From positions 1 through 64,000 of the forward strand of contig JAKLIY010000001.1 in NCBI GenBank assembly GCA_022709365.1: DNA of 64,000 nt. The letters run 5' to 3'. The DNA is from Pseudomonadota bacterium (GTDB taxonomy: Bacteria; Pseudomonadota; Gammaproteobacteria; Competibacterales; Competibacteraceae). Both the position numbers and the translations under genes were made by a program. Below, piece after piece: positions 4,874 to 14,697 of the stretch (positions are counted from its first letter, which is position 1; each line of letters opens with the position of its first letter). The notes under the pieces are model-generated. The model searched no databases, was not told where the DNA came from, and saw nothing but the letters and a program-made list of their open reading frames with translations.

Positions 4874-5305
4874 CCGTTCAGACCCCCCACACCAGCCCTC
4901 CCCCACAAGGGGGGAGGGCGTTTTACGAAACAGCCGGTTATCTGACTCCCCTTCCCCGACGTGGGAGGGGGTGAACGCATACGCCCAGATAAGGCTTCAT
5001 GGCTAACTCCCCAATGATTGATGATCGCCCCCAGTATAACGACCTTCACCCGAGTGAAATATCAGGATGGTTGATCAGGATTCGGTTCATTCTTGTTTAT
5101 AAACTTTTTTAATTCAAAAGCTTATGAGTCAGACCTAATTCATCTACCTACATTCAGTACATGACTGGGACTGTGGTTTTTATCAGAGGAATAGGCTACA
5201 TTTGCCTGGAAAATGGCGGATACGCTGGCTAAACGATAATTCACCCAAGACGCCCCCGTTCGCCGTTGCACAGTCACCCGAGAACGAAAGTTAAGGAGAC
5301 TTATT
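4874..5305. other. intergenic region with hairpin elements
   Basis: This 432-base gap holds the hairpin at 4895-4924, a second C-rich/G-rich element near 4951-4976 and an AT-rich stretch near 5095-5115 that may contain the promoter of the following large gene. No coding sequence is convincing on either strand. Confidence 0.5.
4895..4924 (+). terminator. hairpin terminator after degQ
   Basis: The arms GCCCTCCCC and GGGGAGGGC enclose a short loop and are followed by GTTTT. It lies 22 bases after the degQ stop. It is also a member of the dispersed palindrome family, so termination is an inference. Confidence 0.5.
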
Positions 5306-8300
5306 GTGTTTGTTCTACCCTCCCAAACAAACCGCACTGCTTCGTGGGGATATCTGTGGGCTGCCTTGACGATCATCACCGCCCTCCTGCTCTCCTCTCC
5401 CGCATGGGCTGCTCTTAGCGTAACCAGCACTGCCTTCGTTAACGGGGGCATCATCCCCCCAGCCAATACTTACAATCTCGGTAGCCAGTGCCAAGGCAAC
5501 AACCTCTCGCCTCAATTAACGTGGGCCGCAGGCCCGGCAGGAACCACCACCACCTATCGAATTGAAATGGTGGATTTAACTGCTGGTAATTTTCTGCACT
5601 GGCAGGTTACCAACATTCCGAACACCACCACCAGCCTGCCTCAGGGCGGCCCATTGCCCGCCGGTAGTATTGAGAGTACAAACGGCTTCGGGACGGCCGG
5701 TTACGGTGGTCCCTGCCCCCCTGCCGATGGTTTGACGCATCAATATGTGATAACGGTTAGCGCCCTATCAGCAACGAATACTGTCCTTGACTCGGGTACA
5801 CTGACTGGAACAAAGACATTTAGCGGCACGATTACCGTTCCCAACGTAGTTGGGCAACTCCAAGGCAATGCAATCGCCACACTTCAGTCTGCTGGTTTGA
5901 CCACTGCGGTGAATCCGGCGGTCAGCGCTCTCCCAGTCGGTACCGTCATCAGCCAAAACCCCGTAGCCGGCAACAATGTAGCTTATGGTGCTCTGATCAC
6001 CCTCACGGTATCCTCGGGTTCGGGCGCGATCATCCTTGTCCCCAACGTACTCGGGCAGACACAGAATGCTGCTACCGTCGCGATCCAGAATGCCGGCTTC
6101 GCTGTTTCCATCGTCTACTGCACACCAGCAGCACCACCAGTGGCAACATGTCCAGCAGGAGCTGGAGGCACTGTTAATGTACAGAACCCGGCAGCCGGTG
6201 CCAATGCAGTTCCCGGTAGTACAGTTACTCTCACAGTGGTTTCGGCTGATATCATTCCTGTTCCTAACGTAGTCGGACTCACCCAAAGCGCCGCTATCAC
6301 CGCGATCCAAGGGGCCGGCCTGACCGTCACCGTGACTACCGAAGCCAGTTTCACCGTCCCGCTCGGCACGGTCATCAGCCAAGAGCCGGTGGGCGGTATC
6401 CTGGTGGCCCCTGCCACCAAAGTTAAAATCGTGGTGTCCACCGGTTCCGGGCTGAGCGCCACCGTCCCGAACGTGGTTGGTCAAACGCAAAGCGCCGCCG
6501 TCGCTGCGATCCAGAACGCTGGCTTGATCGTGACCGTCACCACCGAGAACAGCACCACCGTCCCCGCTGGCGCCGTCATTAGCCAAGATCCAGTAGGCGG
6601 TATCCTGGTAAAGCCCGGTAGCGAGGTCGAGATCGTCGTATCCTCCGGCTTCACGGCGGTTACGGTTCCCAACGTGGTCGGCCAAACATTGGCGACCGCC
6701 AAAGACAGCATTACAGGCGTTAATCTGAAGGTCGGTACGACTACCCTGGCCTCCAGCACGACCGTCGCTGCGGGTAAGATCATCAGCCAAAATCCAGCCG
6801 GCGGTGCTCAGGTTGCCAGCGGCACGGTTGTCAATCTTGTTATCTCCTCAGGCACCGAAGCACCGATCAATCCACCAGTCACCCCAGGCAATATCTCGGT
6901 TCCGGACGTTGAAGGTCTGACCAAGACCGCCGCCACCGAAGTGATTCGCAGCGTGGGCCTGAGCGTCGGCGCCACTTTACAGAGGTATAGCGATACGGTT
7001 CCCGCCGGCATCGTCATCGATCAAAGTCCGGCAGCCGGCGCCAAGGTCGCCATTGCCACCCCCGTCAGTCTGACTGTCTCCCTGGGTAAAGCCGGAGTCG
7101 TCACGGTGCCTGACGTGCGTGGCCAACCGGAAGCCATTGCGCAATCCAATCTGCAAAATGCCGGCCTCACCGTCGGCAGCACCCTGCGACAACCCGATCC
7201 CACCATGCCCTCCGGCAGCGTCATCAGCACCGTTCCCGCGGCCGGAACGCAAGTCGAACTCGGCTCGTCTGTCACCCTGTTGGTCTCCGAAGGCTTCTCC
7301 CAGCCGCAGCAGTGCCCGGTCCCCGATGTCACCCATCAAACGGTCGATAACGCCCGGGAAATTCTGTTTGCAGTTGGGTTATTCAACGTCGGTGCGATCA
7401 CCGTACAACCCAGCGCCTCGATTGCCCCCGGCTTAGTCTCCGGCCAGAGTCCTGCCGCCGGTACGCCCGTTGCCTACGGGACGACCATCAATCTGTTCGT
7501 CTCCTCAGGTTCACAAGCGCCCATCGCCACCCCCAACGTGGTCGGACTTACCTTGGATGAAGCCACCGTCAGCCTCACCCAAGTCGGCCTGAAGGCGGGC
7601 TTCGTCTCCCGACAGACCAGCAACACCGTCGAGGCGGGGCGCATCATCAGCCAAAGCCCATTGATGACTGCCCTGGTGCCAGTCGGCTGGTCCATCAACC
7701 TGGTGGTCTCACTGGGTCCCATCCCGGAGGATCCGGGCGCTCGCCCACAGACCCAAGTACCCAACGTTGCCGGTCAGACCCTGGCTGCGGCCACCGCCCA
7801 AGTGATCGAAGCCGGTCTACGTGTCGGCATCGTTTCCAACCAAAGCAGCCAGGACGTGCCTGCTGGTCAGGTGATCCGGCAAAGTCCGCTGGCCGATGCC
7901 ACAGTACCAGTCAGCAGTCCGGTCAACCTGGTGATTTCCTTCGGACCCTACGCCTACACCCTGCTCAGCGGGCCGGCGTATGTGACCAACTACGTCGGCG
8001 GTACGGTGTCCATCCTGAACCCGGATATCAACCAGACGGTTGATAACATCCCCACCGGCATCAACAACACCGGCCCTAGTGGCATTGCAATAAGTCCGGA
8101 CGGCACCCGATTGTATGTAGTCAACCGCCCGCGTTTCAGCCGGAGCGCCGGCACGGTGTCCGTCATTGACCTGACCGAACGCAAGGTGATCGCCGTCATT
8201 CCTGTCGGCGTAGCACCGCTCGGCGTCGCCGTCAACCCCACCGGCGAACGGCTGTTCGTCGCCAATGAAGGCAGCTTCAGCCTGTCAGTGATCGATACCA

Positions 8301-9307
8301 CGACGAACCAGCCGTTCATCGATATGAGCGTTCCTGGCCTGGCAATCAACGCCTACCCGCGCGGCGTAGCGACGCATCCCAACCCGCTGCGGCCCTTGGT
8401 GTATGTCACGAACCGGACGGTTAATTCATTCTCGGATGATGAAGCCAACCCGCAACCTGACCAATGCGATGCACTGGTCGCACGGCCACCGATCAACGTG
8501 AACCACGATCAGTGCGTGGGTTCGCTGTCGATCTTCGACGCTGATATTAAGGCGCAGGTCGGCTCAGTAGCGGTCGGCTGGGCACCGGAAGGTGTGGCGG
8601 TTCATCCGAATGGAATGTTCGTTTATGTGGCTAACTCTGGGGATCGGACCGTTTCCGTTATTGAGACGGTCTTCAACCGGGTGGTCGGCATTATTACCCT
8701 GGATGAGTTCGGCGGCGCGCCACAGCCGCTGGTACCGCGCGGCGTCGCAGTCAGCCCGGATGGTAACCGGCTGTATGTCACCGATGGCGCGGGTAACCGG
8801 CTGTTCGTGATCGACATCACGGCTAATCATGCCGTCGTCGGCATTGTCTCGGTCGGCAAGACGCCTTATGGCGTCTCGGTCAGCCCGGACAGCAAACGGG
8901 TCTACGTCGCCAACACCGATGACAATACGGTTTCGGTGGTCGATGGCCGGAGTAACCAGGTGATCGCGGTAGTACCCGCAGGGTTAGGACCGTGGGCCTT
9001 TGGTCAATTCACGGGACCCTTGGTGGCGGTCGCCGCGCCGACCTTTGCTCCACCGGGTGGCTCCTATTCGACCAGCCAGAGCGTGAAGATCACCACCCCG
9101 ACGCCGGGCGCTTCCATTCGTTATACGACGGATGGCAGTACGCCAACCTCGACCTCCGGGACGCTGATCAGCAATGGACAAGCGGTGTCACTGACCCAGT
9201 TAGGGACTACGGTCCTGAAAGCAATGGCCTTCAAGGAAAACTGGGCTGATTCAGAGGTGACGGAAGCAACCTACACGATTGGCAATCCGCTCCTCAAAAA
9301 ACGATAG
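5306..9307 (+). CDS. giant exported PEBP - 10x PASTA - YVTN beta-propeller - chitobiase C-term protein
   Basis: This is a 1333-residue exported protein with a GTG start behind TTAAGGAG. The signal peptide covers about residues 1-35 (ending PAWA-A). Residues about 40-175 resemble the PEBP/YbhB family (NNLSPQLTW, LHWQVTNIP, GYGGPCPP). Ten PASTA repeats of about 66-75 residues follow (about 177-875), each beginning VPNVVGQT or similar and ending with a strand such as VNLVISSG. A YVTN propeller (about 885-1240) has repeated SPDG.RLYV.N..D.TVSVID motifs. A chitobiase/hexosaminidase C-terminal Ig-like domain (about 1244-1325, YTTDGSTP) ends it. PASTA repeats normally bind muropeptides or act as spacers in Gram-positive kinases and penicillin-binding proteins. 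No catalytic or membrane-anchor segment is visible. Role unknown; surface or periplasmic structural or binding function is inferred. Confidence 0.9.
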   Translation: MFVLPSQTNRTASWGYLWAALTIITALLLSSPAWAALSVTSTAFVNGGIIPPANTYNLGSQCQGNNLSPQLTWAAGPAGTTTTYRIEMVDLTAGNFLHWQVTNIPNTTTSLPQGGPLPAGSIESTNGFGTAGYGGPCPPADGLTHQYVITVSALSATNTVLDSGTLTGTKTFSGTITVPNVVGQLQGNAIATLQSAGLTTAVNPAVSALPVGTVISQNPVAGNNVAYGALITLTVSSGSGAIILVPNVLGQTQNAATVAIQNAGFAVSIVYCTPAAPPVATCPAGAGGTVNVQNPAAGANAVPGSTVTLTVVSADIIPVPNVVGLTQSAAITAIQGAGLTVTVTTEASFTVPLGTVISQEPVGGILVAPATKVKIVVSTGSGLSATVPNVVGQTQSAAVAAIQNAGLIVTVTTENSTTVPAGAVISQDPVGGILVKPGSEVEIVVSSGFTAVTVPNVVGQTLATAKDSITGVNLKVGTTTLASSTTVAAGKIISQNPAGGAQVASGTVVNLVISSGTEAPINPPVTPGNISVPDVEGLTKTAATEVIRSVGLSVGATLQRYSDTVPAGIVIDQSPAAGAKVAIATPVSLTVSLGKAGVVTVPDVRGQPEAIAQSNLQNAGLTVGSTLRQPDPTMPSGSVISTVPAAGTQVELGSSVTLLVSEGFSQPQQCPVPDVTHQTVDNAREILFAVGLFNVGAITVQPSASIAPGLVSGQSPAAGTPVAYGTTINLFVSSGSQAPIATPNVVGLTLDEATVSLTQVGLKAGFVSRQTSNTVEAGRIISQSPLMTALVPVGWSINLVVSLGPIPEDPGARPQTQVPNVAGQTLAAATAQVIEAGLRVGIVSNQSSQDVPAGQVIRQSPLADATVPVSSPVNLVISFGPYAYTLLSGPAYVTNYVGGTVSILNPDINQTVDNIPTGINNTGPSGIAISPDGTRLYVVNRPRFSRSAGTVSVIDLTERKVIAVIPVGVAPLGVAVNPTGERLFVANEGSFSLSVIDTTTNQPFIDMSVPGLAINAYPRGVATHPNPLRPLVYVTNRTVNSFSDDEANPQPDQCDALVARPPINVNHDQCVGSLSIFDADIKAQVGSVAVGWAPEGVAVHPNGMFVYVANSGDRTVSVIETVFNRVVGIITLDEFGGAPQPLVPRGVAVSPDGNRLYVTDGAGNRLFVIDITANHAVVGIVSVGKTPYGVSVSPDSKRVYVANTDDNTVSVVDGRSNQVIAVVPAGLGPWAFGQFTGPLVAVAAPTFAPPGGSYSTSQSVKITTPTPGASIRYTTDGSTPTSTSGTLISNGQAVSLTQLGTTVLKAMAFKENWADSEVTEATYTIGNPLLKKR

Positions 9308-9364
9308 GAACTGAGATCAATCCTTAAGGGAAAGGATTCCCGTAAATGATTGAATACCTCTTGA

Positions 9365-9393
9365 AGCCGCGATGCCTATCGCGGCTTTTTTTT
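9365..9393 (+). terminator. Rho-independent terminator after the PASTA gene
   Basis: AGCCGCGAT and ATCGCGGCT form a perfect nine-base-pair stem with a four-base loop, followed by eight T residues. It lies 57 bases after the stop codon. Confidence 0.85.
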
Positions 9394-9927: not shown

Positions 9928-12417
9928 CTATGGCGCTGGCGCTGGCGCTGCTGGTTGCTGCGTTGTCACCGTAATTTGGAGCACAGTGCTGTGAATTTCC
10001 GGTCCGATCGTGGAGAAGTGGAAATCCACACTGCCATCAGTCGGCAGGTCATTGACCTGCAACGTAGCCCTGGCATAGCCAGCCCCAGTGGAAGAGAGCG
10101 TGGATGGCACGACCGACGCGGTAGGACTGTGTAAGCTAGCAACCGCACGCGCTTGAATAGCGGTAGCTTTCGCTTCATCCAAGGCTGACGTCAGCACCGT
10201 TTGCTGCTTACACTTTGCCAGATCTCGCGGACTCGGTTCGGCTGTTGGATCCGTCAAGATCAGATCGCAAACACCCGGGTTGGCAGCAACGAATCCATCC
10301 AAAGCCGCCTGGGCTGCGGCCACAGCTTCTTCAGCAACAATCGCTGCTGTCTCCGCCGGGTTGTTGATAATCGTATCAACAGCAATCGGTACCCCCGGAA
10401 TCGGCGTACGGCGAACTTCAATAATACCATCGCCATTCAGATCGCCAATCGAAACACCACCATCCAACAATTGCAAAGTGACGGGCAAGTTGACCGTCGC
10501 GCCTGGTGCGACCACGACACTCGCCTGGACCGCAACAGGCCACGGCTGTAAATCCAGCGATGGCATTTGCATCGCCAACTGGAGCGGCTGCGTTACCGTT
10601 AAAATGCTGCCATCATCAATGCCAAGATACCAATGGGTCATCACGGCGCCCACTCTGCCGCCATTGGATTCGGCCATGACCATGAACCGCCGCCCAACCT
10701 GGTTAGCCGGATAATTCATCACGGTATTGGCCACACCATTGATATCGGTCATCACCGACACTTCCGTCGTTCCAAACACCGGGCTATTGATCATGTTGAA
10801 GTTCATGACATTGCCCTTGTGAGGTGGACACCCAACGGTGTACCAGACATTAGCACCGACATTCTGGCTGACCTGATTGAAGGGTGAATTGACCGTCAGC
10901 ATATTGCCTTGCCGCCCGGTGATAATGCGGCTGCCAACATGGTATTCCAGCCGACCTTCTGCTGGCAGGGCGTTGATAGTGCTCGAATTCGGATTGATGA
11001 CCTCCGGATCCTGCAACACCAACAGGCAAAGGGGATCAGCGATCGCATAGGACACGCCATTCGGTACGACGAATGGATTCAACGTATCGCCGGTGACGCG
11101 CGCTGTCGTACGGTTGGGGGCGAAGAAAGCATAACCACCTTCCTGGGGATCACCGTTATACCCGGTAATAGCGAACTGACCATGCCCTTGATCAGGATAA
11201 CGGTTCTTGAGCATATCCAGCGGTGAATCGATCAATCGGAAGGTGATCGGCGTGCCTGCAGGCGGCGGGTTGCCATACGGATCGCTGGCCACGATTGAAA
11301 TGAAGCGGGTATAGACGCCATTCCACAGGGTATCCTTGGCACCTTCAACGGTGAAAGGATCCCCCTGAGTCGTAGGATCGATCAGTTGTGCGCCCAAGTT
11401 ATTCTTGCGCGCTAGCACCGCATCCGAAAACGGCCCTGCAAACGTCAGCGAAGTAATCACGCCCGTCCCGATTGAAACCATGGCGTAATTGGTAATACCG
11501 AACTGAATGCCGTTATCCACATTGTTATCCACCCGATCGGCGGTTGCAGCGATCACCACCGTACCTGGCGCCGTGCCGCTATGCAGGATGGCTGTCGCCG
11601 CACCACCGAACAAACCGGATACCACTGAGGTCCCCTGCTGAGCACTGCCATCAGCGCCAGTTGCGCTTAACCATTCGCCACCATTGGGCCGAGTAGGCAG
11701 CATCTCGATCCGCAGAGGATTGCCGACACCCGGATTAATCGGTTGGCCGAAATCATCCTTCACGAAGATTTGGAACAATTTGGTATTGCTCTGCGGCACG
11801 GTGGTCGTGCCATCAGGATTGGTGCTGATATAGACCGGCGTAGGATCCATAACAAAAGTCACCGTGGCCGGCACGGGAGGATTATTCACGTTGCCGCCCC
11901 CGGTTACGTTAATCGTCAGATTAGCACTGATGATTTGTCCGGTTTGCGGGTCAGCGGCTGATGCGGAAATTACTACGGGTCCTGGCGCACTGAGCGCGTG
12001 GAGGTGGGTAGTAATCACTCCTCCCGTATCCGTGTAAACAATATTGCGGGAAGCGATAATGTTACCGTTATCGTCTTTCTCATCATTCCCATCTAAACGG
12101 AACAACACTCCGCTACTCAAACCTGATACGATGGCAACATTAACACTCGGGGCGTTAAAAAGCTTGCCATTCCGCGTAATTTGAATAGTGATCGTATTGG
12201 TATACGGGCTGCCAATCTGCGGACCTGCATTGAGAATATTGACAGGCAGTGTCGTTTTATCAGCGGCTATCGAGACAGCGATCGGAGCCTGCCCGATAAA
12301 CCCTCCACCAGTAAAACCTCCTGCAATGGCGTCACCGCCGCCCATGCTGACCATCATTACGATAGTCAGCAGTAGTAATTCAACCAGCCCTTTCAACCTG
12401 CTTATCAACGATCGCAT
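9928..12417 (-). CDS. secreted Ig-like repeat protein at the end of the pil operon
   Basis: This 829-residue exported protein has a signal sequence (hydrophobic stretch about residues 10-32, AIAG). It is almost entirely beta-rich Ig-like modules. The modules show repeating features such as TGGVITTHLHALSAPGPVVISASA and SGTAPGTVVIAATA, which resemble the invasin/intimin (Big_1) fold. A DLNGDGIIEV segment near residue 660 looks like a calcium-binding loop. The tail is Ala/Pro-rich. No sortase or membrane anchor is seen. The gene begins 48 bases after pilQ with a GGGGAG ribosome site, so co-transcription with the pilus genes is likely. It could be a pilus-associated adhesin or a surface protein; the function is inferred from position and fold only. 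Confidence 0.8.
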   Translation of the reverse strand: MRSLISRLKGLVELLLLTIVMMVSMGGGDAIAGGFTGGGFIGQAPIAVSIAADKTTLPVNILNAGPQIGSPYTNTITIQITRNGKLFNAPSVNVAIVSGLSSGVLFRLDGNDEKDDNGNIIASRNIVYTDTGGVITTHLHALSAPGPVVISASAADPQTGQIISANLTINVTGGGNVNNPPVPATVTFVMDPTPVYISTNPDGTTTVPQSNTKLFQIFVKDDFGQPINPGVGNPLRIEMLPTRPNGGEWLSATGADGSAQQGTSVVSGLFGGAATAILHSGTAPGTVVIAATADRVDNNVDNGIQFGITNYAMVSIGTGVITSLTFAGPFSDAVLARKNNLGAQLIDPTTQGDPFTVEGAKDTLWNGVYTRFISIVASDPYGNPPPAGTPITFRLIDSPLDMLKNRYPDQGHGQFAITGYNGDPQEGGYAFFAPNRTTARVTGDTLNPFVVPNGVSYAIADPLCLLVLQDPEVINPNSSTINALPAEGRLEYHVGSRIITGRQGNMLTVNSPFNQVSQNVGANVWYTVGCPPHKGNVMNFNMINSPVFGTTEVSVMTDINGVANTVMNYPANQVGRRFMVMAESNGGRVGAVMTHWYLGIDDGSILTVTQPLQLAMQMPSLDLQPWPVAVQASVVVAPGATVNLPVTLQLLDGGVSIGDLNGDGIIEVRRTPIPGVPIAVDTIINNPAETAAIVAEEAVAAAQAALDGFVAANPGVCDLILTDPTAEPSPRDLAKCKQQTVLTSALDEAKATAIQARAVASLHSPTASVVPSTLSSTGAGYARATLQVNDLPTDGSVDFHFSTIGPEIHSTVLQITVTTQQPAAPAPAP

Positions 12418-12465: not shown

Positions 12466-14697
12466 CTACTCCGCCACTTTCCCTTCTTTCAGGATTTGCG
12501 GCGTGACGAAAATCAGGAGTTCGCGCTTCGTCGCAGTATTAGTTGTAGTCCGGAACAGATACCCCAGCAGCGGTATATCCCCCAGTAACGGCACCTTAGT
12601 CGCATTATCCGCTTTGGTTTGCTCGAAAACGCCACCCAGCACAACCGTTTCACCATTGTTGACCAAGACCTGAGTCTCAATCTCACGTTTGTCGATACTT
12701 ACCTGTGGCCCCGTCGCAGTCGCTACAACAGCGCCTTGTTCATCCTTGGAGACCTTAAGATCCATCCGAATCCGGTCATCCGGCGTGATCTGCGGAGTCA
12801 CCTCCAGCTTCAGGAAGGCATCCTTAAACTCAACATTGGTGCCCTGATCGCTAACGGTAGAATATGGAATCTGCCGACCTTGCAAAATAGTGGCTTTCTT
12901 TAAATCAGCAGTAATGACTCGCGGGTTTGAAACAATTTCCGCATTACCTTCAACTTGCTGGGCAGAAAGCTCCAAATCCACCAGATAATCCGCCCCTAAA
13001 ATCGCGAAAGCGATGCTAGGACCGCCTACTGGCAAGTTTACCCCGAGTCGTTCAGGCAATGACGGGACGGCCACTGGGAAGGGCTGCCCGGTACTAATCA
13101 GGTTGCCCACAGCGCTGTCGATCATGGTGCCGGTTGCATTGACATTACCGCTCACCGTATTGATTCGATCTCCCGACTGGCTCACGCCTGACACGCCGAA
13201 TCGCACACCCAGATCCCGACTAAAATCATTACTGGCAATGACCACTCTCGAATCGATCATGACTTGTTTGGCAGGCTTATCGAGTTGCGCTACCAGATCA
13301 CGAACCTCGCCCAACTTGTCAGGCACATCCTTGACAATCAGGCTATTGGTTCGCTCATCGGTTTCAACCGTGCCGCGCGGCGACAGAATGCTTCCCTTCT
13401 TTTCATCGCCACTCTTCAGCAACTTCGCCAGATCCGCCGCCTTGGCGTAATTGACTTGAATAATCTCGGTGCGCAGCGGCACCAGTTCCTCAACTGTCTT
13501 GCGCGATTCCAGATCCAGTTTCTCGCGGGCCGCGATTTCCTCGGTCGGCGCAATAAAAACCACATTCCCATTCTGGCGCATCGACAAACCTTTGGTGCGC
13601 ATGATTATATCCAGCGCCTGATCCCACGGCACATTCTGCAAGCGCAGCGTCAAATTCCCTTTCACCGTATCGCTGACCACGATATTCAAGCCGGTAAAAT
13701 CCGCCAGAATTTGCAGAATCGCCCGCACCTCGATGTCCTGGAAATTCAGCGACAGCAGATCACCCTTATATTTCTTCTTCGACGGATCAAACTGCGCTTC
13801 CTTTTCCTCATCCTCCGCCGTTTTCTGCGGCGGGCGCACTTCGATCACATAGAGATCATTCGCCTGATACGCCAGATATTCAAATGGCGGACTGGGCTGA
13901 ATGCTTAACCGGGCATTACCGCCCTGATTCAAAGCTTCAATCGTCGTCACCGGCGTGGCAAAGTCCGTCACATCCAAGCGTCTTTGTTGACCTTTCGGCA
14001 GGGTAGCCCCCTGAAAATCAGCCAGAATCCGGTTCCCCTCCTGGCGCACATCCGCCGCGATATTCGGATTGGACAGCTTGACCGTGATTATGCCTTGCCC
14101 GGCCGGCCCGCGCTTAAAGCCCACATCGCTGATATTGCGCGGCGTTGACGGCGCTGGCGCTTCGCTGCGCTTCGGCGCGGACGCCGCTACTGATCCGGTG
14201 GGGCTGGGCGCCGGGGTCTTCTTCACAGCAGTACCGGCGCTTTCCAGCGTCAACAGCACGGTATCGCCCTGCACTTCCACCCGATACGGCACCAGCTGCG
14301 CCAGATTCAGCGACGCCCGGGTCCGGTCCGCCCCCTCTAACACACTGATCTTATCGGCCACCCCGACATTGATCGCCTGCTGCCGTGTCGCCAGTCCATT
14401 TCGCGTCCCCAGAAAATCCAGCACAATCCGCGCCGGCTCATTGATGGTAAAGCTGCTCGGCGGCCCCTCCGGCCGTTCCGACAGCCGGAACCGCAATTGC
14501 AACCGATTGCCCGCCAATGGACTGATATCTACCGCCTGCAAGATCGGCTGCCGCCCGGCCTCTGCTGCCGACGCCGCCGTCCAGCCAGTCGCCAGCCACA
14601 CGATGGCCCAGATCCAACCCAACGCCGCCCAGCGCAGCAGACTCCCCCCGCCTGACTGCTGGCCGCATTGGCCTTCGCTTATGGCACTGTTCGTCAT
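12466..14697 (-). CDS. pilQ: type IV pilus secretin PilQ
   Basis: This 743-residue outer-membrane secretin forms the ring through which type IV pili pass. A long N-terminal signal is followed by two AMIN domains (about 50-150 and 190-285, binding peptidoglycan). Then come an STN domain (about 312-400, LNFQDIEVRAILQILAD), a secretin N domain (about 409-475) and the secretin barrel (about 560-735, with VEGNAEIVSNPRV and KRELLIFVTPQIL). Length and order are typical. It follows pilP after 16 bases in the pilMNOPQ operon. Confidence 0.97.
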   Translation of the reverse strand: MTNSAISEGQCGQQSGGGSLLRWAALGWIWAIVWLATGWTAASAAEAGRQPILQAVDISPLAGNRLQLRFRLSERPEGPPSSFTINEPARIVLDFLGTRNGLATRQQAINVGVADKISVLEGADRTRASLNLAQLVPYRVEVQGDTVLLTLESAGTAVKKTPAPSPTGSVAASAPKRSEAPAPSTPRNISDVGFKRGPAGQGIITVKLSNPNIAADVRQEGNRILADFQGATLPKGQQRRLDVTDFATPVTTIEALNQGGNARLSIQPSPPFEYLAYQANDLYVIEVRPPQKTAEDEEKEAQFDPSKKKYKGDLLSLNFQDIEVRAILQILADFTGLNIVVSDTVKGNLTLRLQNVPWDQALDIIMRTKGLSMRQNGNVVFIAPTEEIAAREKLDLESRKTVEELVPLRTEIIQVNYAKAADLAKLLKSGDEKKGSILSPRGTVETDERTNSLIVKDVPDKLGEVRDLVAQLDKPAKQVMIDSRVVIASNDFSRDLGVRFGVSGVSQSGDRINTVSGNVNATGTMIDSAVGNLISTGQPFPVAVPSLPERLGVNLPVGGPSIAFAILGADYLVDLELSAQQVEGNAEIVSNPRVITADLKKATILQGRQIPYSTVSDQGTNVEFKDAFLKLEVTPQITPDDRIRMDLKVSKDEQGAVVATATGPQVSIDKREIETQVLVNNGETVVLGGVFEQTKADNATKVPLLGDIPLLGYLFRTTTNTATKRELLIFVTPQILKEGKVAE

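Follow-up and report, generated by a model that had tools for sequence, protein, structure and literature searches.

Both muropeptides and lipid II are ligands of the PknB PASTA domains (PMC3145798, PMC6428115), and for lipid II binding by the PknB of M. tuberculosis an SKxNQ linker has been reported (PMC6428115). Typical PEBPs have five conserved residues, the second Asp and the Arg forming a salt bridge, and a DPDAP motif has been defined for them (PMC8793217). For the GSDH-YbhB fusions, it has been proposed that the PEBP acts on the sugar substrate or product of the propeller (PMC8793217).

The window, the whole 64,000-nucleotide stretch of Competibacteraceae DNA analysed here, includes at positions 5306-9307 of the forward strand a single uninterrupted frame of 1333 residues with a GTG start (Table 1). 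The initial annotation had read this frame as a signal peptide, PEBP, ten PASTA units, a YVTN propeller and a chitobiase-type C-terminal domain, and Pfam confirmed the same order in one frame, the last domain as CHB_HEX_C_1. The proposed boundaries 37-175, 177-875, 885-1240 and 1244-1333 were correct to approximately ten residues, and PEBP and PASTA, the two domains whose failure to match had been named as grounds for rejecting the reading, both matched above their Pfam cut-offs. Also the suggested lack of a catalytic domain held, as neither a kinase nor a transpeptidase was matched by Pfam in the 1333-residue protein; the best stretch of the NCBIfam model NF033483 fell in the PASTA part. By sequence reading, the signal peptide has no lipobox cysteine, and the protein showed neither an anchor nor a sorting signal. 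The annotation knew of no described system with such a domain order, and none emerged from the searches made, nor was anything relevant found in the literature on PASTA combined with YVTN or on Competibacter with PASTA or a propeller. The odd architecture is real, but amounts to a local elaboration of domain types that are known.

Table 1. Features of the PASTA-propeller gene and its surroundings, in window coordinates.
Feature	Residues	Position	Strand	Basis
Shine-Dalgarno-like AAGGAG		5293..5298	+	sequence; 7 nt before GTG start
Sec signal peptide, signal peptidase I type, ...SSPAWA/AL	1-35	5306..5410	+	translation, sequence reading
PEBP domain, YbcL-type, highly diverged	37-176	5414..5833	+	Pfam PF01161, PDB 1fux/1fjj, alignment, tree
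PASTA units 1-4, specific to this genome	178-453	5837..6664	+	Pfam, unit comparison
PASTA unit 5, 61-66% to unit of long orthologues	454-531	6665..6898	+	unit comparison
PASTA units 6-10, one-to-one in 8/8 relatives	532-886	6899..7963	+	unit comparison
Seven-bladed YVTN beta-propeller	887-1244	7964..9037	+	Pfam, NCBIfam, PDB search, model, Foldseek
Two-cysteine insert, C1054 and C1070	1031-1080	8396..8545	+	orthologue conservation
CHB_HEX_C_1 / Fn3_assoc beta-sandwich	1245-1333	9038..9304	+	Pfam PF13290
Terminator-like hairpin with T-run		9363..9388	+	sequence; 56 bases after frame end
829-aa exported protein, convergent		9928..12417	-	no Pfam/NCBIfam/PDB family
pilQ (type IV pilus secretin), then pilP, pilO, pilN		12466..14697 (pilQ)	-	Pfam, NCBIfam

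Orthologues were found in eight other genomes of Competibacteraceae, at about 65-80% identity. They consist of a signal, about 5 or 9 PASTA units, the propeller and the CHB domain, and PEBP was present in none of the eight, of which those of G004 and G030 lie near or run into a contig end and have incomplete N-termini. The conserved unit is thus formed by PASTA, propeller and CHB together, and the PEBP, which the initial annotation had treated as a defining part, is an addition seen in one genome. The Competibacteraceae PASTA-YVTN-CHB orthologue group, defined here and including the two-cysteine insert, covers nine genomes; that five genomes of the same genus lack the PASTA-propeller gene counts against the binding-protein reading favoured below.

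The propeller region was matched by the Lactonase and YNCE propeller models of Pfam (E approximately 1e-15 and 1e-11, respectively), and NCBIfam detected five YVTN repeats (TIGR02276, E = 4.9e-42, 141.6 bits). The AlphaFold2 model of the propeller and CHB domain (pLDDT 76, pTM 0.75) contained 29 propeller strands, which corresponds to approximately seven blades. The CHB_HEX_C_1 match covered residues 1249-1319 (E = 7.9e-16). Conservation across the orthologues peaked in the two-cysteine insert, with 76% of positions invariant in comparison to 33-62% elsewhere, and this peak suggests that it is the propeller that does the work. The propeller tip may plausibly bind a ligand.

Pfam identified ten tandem PASTA stretches (PF03793, E = 5.6e-126, 411 bits), above the cut-off. 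Units 6-10 were 57-80% identical to the last five units of each relative, whereas units 1-4 had no clear partner unit in the orthologues. PASTA 5/6-10, the propeller and CHB thus have one-to-one counterparts in the relatives and PASTA 1-4 no clear ones, so that the C-terminal half is conserved and the N-terminal half remodelled. Units 3 and 4 were 74% identical to each other, unit 1 was closest to unit 3 of the same protein (52%), and units 1-2 have almost no charged residues. All strong PASTA matches of the genome fell within the 5306-9307 gene, neither a PASTA kinase nor a PASTA-PBP was matched in this genome, and the SKxNQ motif was present in no linker of the ten-unit array. This absence, together with the presence of PASTA in exported proteins of the family, favours a spacer role, although the array may also bind peptidoglycan. 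The cell-wall-binding fibre put forward in the initial annotation would be without a PASTA kinase or PASTA-PBP context in this genome.

Other exported PASTA proteins were encountered in the family. The gene L027:8289-9296 (-) combines a cohesin with a pair of almost identical PASTA units and an IPTL-CTERM sorting signal, and adjoins a subtilisin-like protease with a dockerin-looking end; a cohesin-dockerin pair in Competibacteraceae is possible. A second kind (L025:5908-9231, L026:2029-4467, L152:45-2762 and L153:841-3729) has an N-terminal part without a Pfam family, in which a repeated motif 'GLIRGW.C..VE.S.DGGP' was read in L025 and L026.

The convergent neighbour encodes a protein with a signal-like N-terminus, for which no family was found in Pfam, NCBIfam or PDB, the loose threshold included. 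Each of the nine carriers of the PASTA-propeller gene had the full-length 829-aa gene, as had two of the 30 non-carriers (11 of the 39 family genomes); because the carriers are related, these counts do not amount to a probability. In seven of the nine carriers the two genes were adjacent and convergent, and in G018 and G019 they were not linked; the 829-aa gene adjoined pilQ where checked, also in these two genomes. Co-occurrence without linkage gives a hint of joint function, while shared ancestry among the few, related carriers may also account for it. A part of approximately 170 residues from the N-terminus of the 829-aa protein recurs in longer frames of G013 and G014. Fixed membership of the pilus operon was rejected for the PASTA-propeller gene, since it is not linked to it in G018 and G019 and most of the pilQ-bearing genomes of the family lack it. 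The adjoining pilMNOPQ genes are a conserved landmark and are not claimed as part of the PASTA-propeller system.

The reading that we favour, with about even confidence, is an exported binding protein of Competibacteraceae with a conserved propeller, a variable PASTA spacer, an added PEBP and the 829-aa protein as partner. The protein would probably be located on the cell surface or in the matrix. Its working end would be the C-terminal YVTN propeller, binding a ligand at the insert, in which the two cysteines are probably disulphide-bonded, followed by the CHB sandwich. The PASTA array would serve as a spacer, the N-terminal side of which has presumably grown and shrunk by gain and loss of repeats (about 5, 9 or 10 units). 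In the genome of the window, the N-terminus would have gained a foreign YbcL-type PEBP, together with a signal peptide of its own and new PASTA units, as an accessory binding domain whose pocket is altered. Joint action with the convergent 829-residue exported protein is probable. The genome carries a type II secretion gene (GspL), so export past the outer membrane is possible.

The protein could also remain in the periplasm, as no anchor or sorting signal accompanies the signal peptide. It would then be a peptidoglycan-associated protein whose PASTA units, like those of PknB, bind muropeptides and hold the propeller and PEBP, as a sensor or an assembly factor, near the type IV pilus machinery. 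The position beside pilQ, kept in seven of the nine carriers, is consistent with this explanation, but the loss of that linkage in G018 and G019 is against it, as are the lack of an SKxNQ-type linker, the scarcity of charged residues in PASTA 1-2, the absence of PASTA kinase and PASTA-PBP matches from the genome and the surface-sorting signal on another PASTA protein of the family. Neither did PilY1 (PF05567) have a match, and the identity of the protein as a PilY1/PilC tip adhesin was rejected since this family was absent from the Pfam results. On balance we regard this periplasmic, peptidoglycan-associated role as unlikely, though worth keeping in mind.

The PEBP head was matched by Pfam at residues 59-166 (E = 1e-20, 74.9 bits against a cut-off of 24) and by TIGR00481 of NCBIfam (62.5 bits against 57.75). 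In the alignment with 45 relatives, the Asp/His/His triad of the pocket was kept (D90, H98, H145). The DPDAP motif was lost, with DLTAG in its place, the second Asp was lost, the Arg after the second His was replaced by Q146, and the C-terminal helix and strand were missing. Because pocket motifs kept by nearly all relatives have been lost, the head may bind nothing. In the tree it clustered with the exported YbcL-type PEBPs (100/100 support) and apart from every YbhB-type PEBP of Competibacteraceae, its own family, on a branch of 3.71 in comparison to the median of 0.31, so long that its exact placement is unsure. As judged from the alignment, the head is a diverged domain of PEBP fold and not a typical member. 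The single-sequence structure prediction of the PEBP-PASTA part reached a pLDDT of 35. One PEBP frame from a different family of the class, L138, was also very diverged (branch 4.17) and without DPDAP.

No other PEBP-PASTA fusion was found among the PEBPs of the sampled genomes, 39 from the family, 369 from the class and 398 from the phylum, nor any plasmid match covering 80% of the PEBP and PASTA 1-2. Six genomes with long PEBP-containing frames were examined for fusions, and the C-terminal extensions were at most 36 residues: G310 is of the known GSDH-PEBP type, and G346, G402, G249, G244 and G099 look like stand-alone PEBPs with the open frame running upstream.

The occurrence of the head in one genome only among those searched, its truncation and long branch, and the draft state of the genome (141 contigs) would also fit a chimeric assembly or a fusion that has decayed and lost its function, the true protein then being an ordinary PASTA-propeller protein. 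The frame is continuous, however, with a ribosome-binding site, signal peptide and terminator, and that so diverged a domain contains neither a stop nor a frameshift suggests that selection has kept the frame open. GC3 was 0.57 in the PEBP, 0.58 and 0.43 in PASTA 1 and 2, and 0.71-0.72 in PASTA 6-10 and the propeller, so the step in base composition falls within the PASTA array rather than at the edge of the PEBP, which speaks against a chimera there. The continuous frame, the shared low GC3 and the likeness of PASTA 1 to PASTA 3 together make a chimera at the PEBP/PASTA boundary unlikely, and we consider the explanation as a whole improbable. The PEBP head is a diverged addition seen in one genome and, in the favoured reading, a recent accessory.

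A surface fibre that binds at both ends, by the conserved propeller tip and by a recently acquired PEBP whose remodelled pocket would take an extracellular ligand, and that would form a two-protein matrix or adhesion system of granule-forming Competibacteraceae with the 829-aa protein, seems to us rather improbable. Hardly to be expected either is an exported enzyme or its partner, in which the PEBP would act on the sugar substrate or product of a lactonase- or dehydrogenase-type propeller: the Pfam Lactonase match, the retained Asp/His/His triad and the PEBP-GSDH propeller fusions, one of which was found here (L110), speak for it, but the propeller matches YVTN repeats and best of all a surface-layer protein while the enzyme-type NCBIfam models stay far below their cut-offs, ten PASTA units separate PEBP and propeller in an order opposite to that of GSDH-YbhB, and the orthologues have no PEBP.

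PASTA repeats are employed here outside any kinase or PBP, and the locus clearly illustrates how a repeat stalk has gained a domain at its free end. What is new here is the PEBP head added to an otherwise PEBP-less orthologue family, the domain types themselves being known. A small PASTA-YVTN-CHB orthologue family, for which no description was found, is defined in Competibacteraceae together with an unclassified exported partner. These are the glycogen-accumulating bacteria of activated and granular sludge, and their surface and matrix proteins are therefore of practical interest.

In comparison to the known systems, the protein has tandem extracytoplasmic PASTA in common with the PknB/StkP-type kinases but lacks the kinase, the transmembrane anchor and the PknB linker motif, and has ten units. 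The cohesin-PASTA-IPTL-CTERM protein of L027, from a member of the same bacterial family, is likewise exported and uses PASTA units as a spacer, while differing in its two PASTA units, cohesin head, sorting signal and lack of a propeller. Of the E. coli proteins YbcL and YbhB (1fux, 1fjj), the PEBP matches YbcL (E = 2e-19) and shares with both the Asp/His/His triad; YbcL is exported (PMC8793217), as the window protein carries an export signal, whereas the window PEBP is fused to PASTA and is without the DPDAP motif, the second Asp, the Arg and the C-terminal helix. The GSDH-YbhB fusions (PMC8793217; L110) are also exported and combine a beta-propeller and a PEBP in one chain, but there the PEBP is C-terminal and adjacent, the propeller is of the quinone-dependent sugar dehydrogenase type, and PASTA is absent. 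The best match of the propeller was the Methanosarcina surface-layer YVTN propeller 1l0q (sequence E = 9.4e-53; Foldseek fold E = 7e-29). The latter has neither PASTA nor PEBP, and the two-cysteine insert belongs to the Competibacteraceae propeller; in both proteins, seven YVTN blades are followed by a beta-sandwich, PKD in 1l0q and CHB in the window protein.
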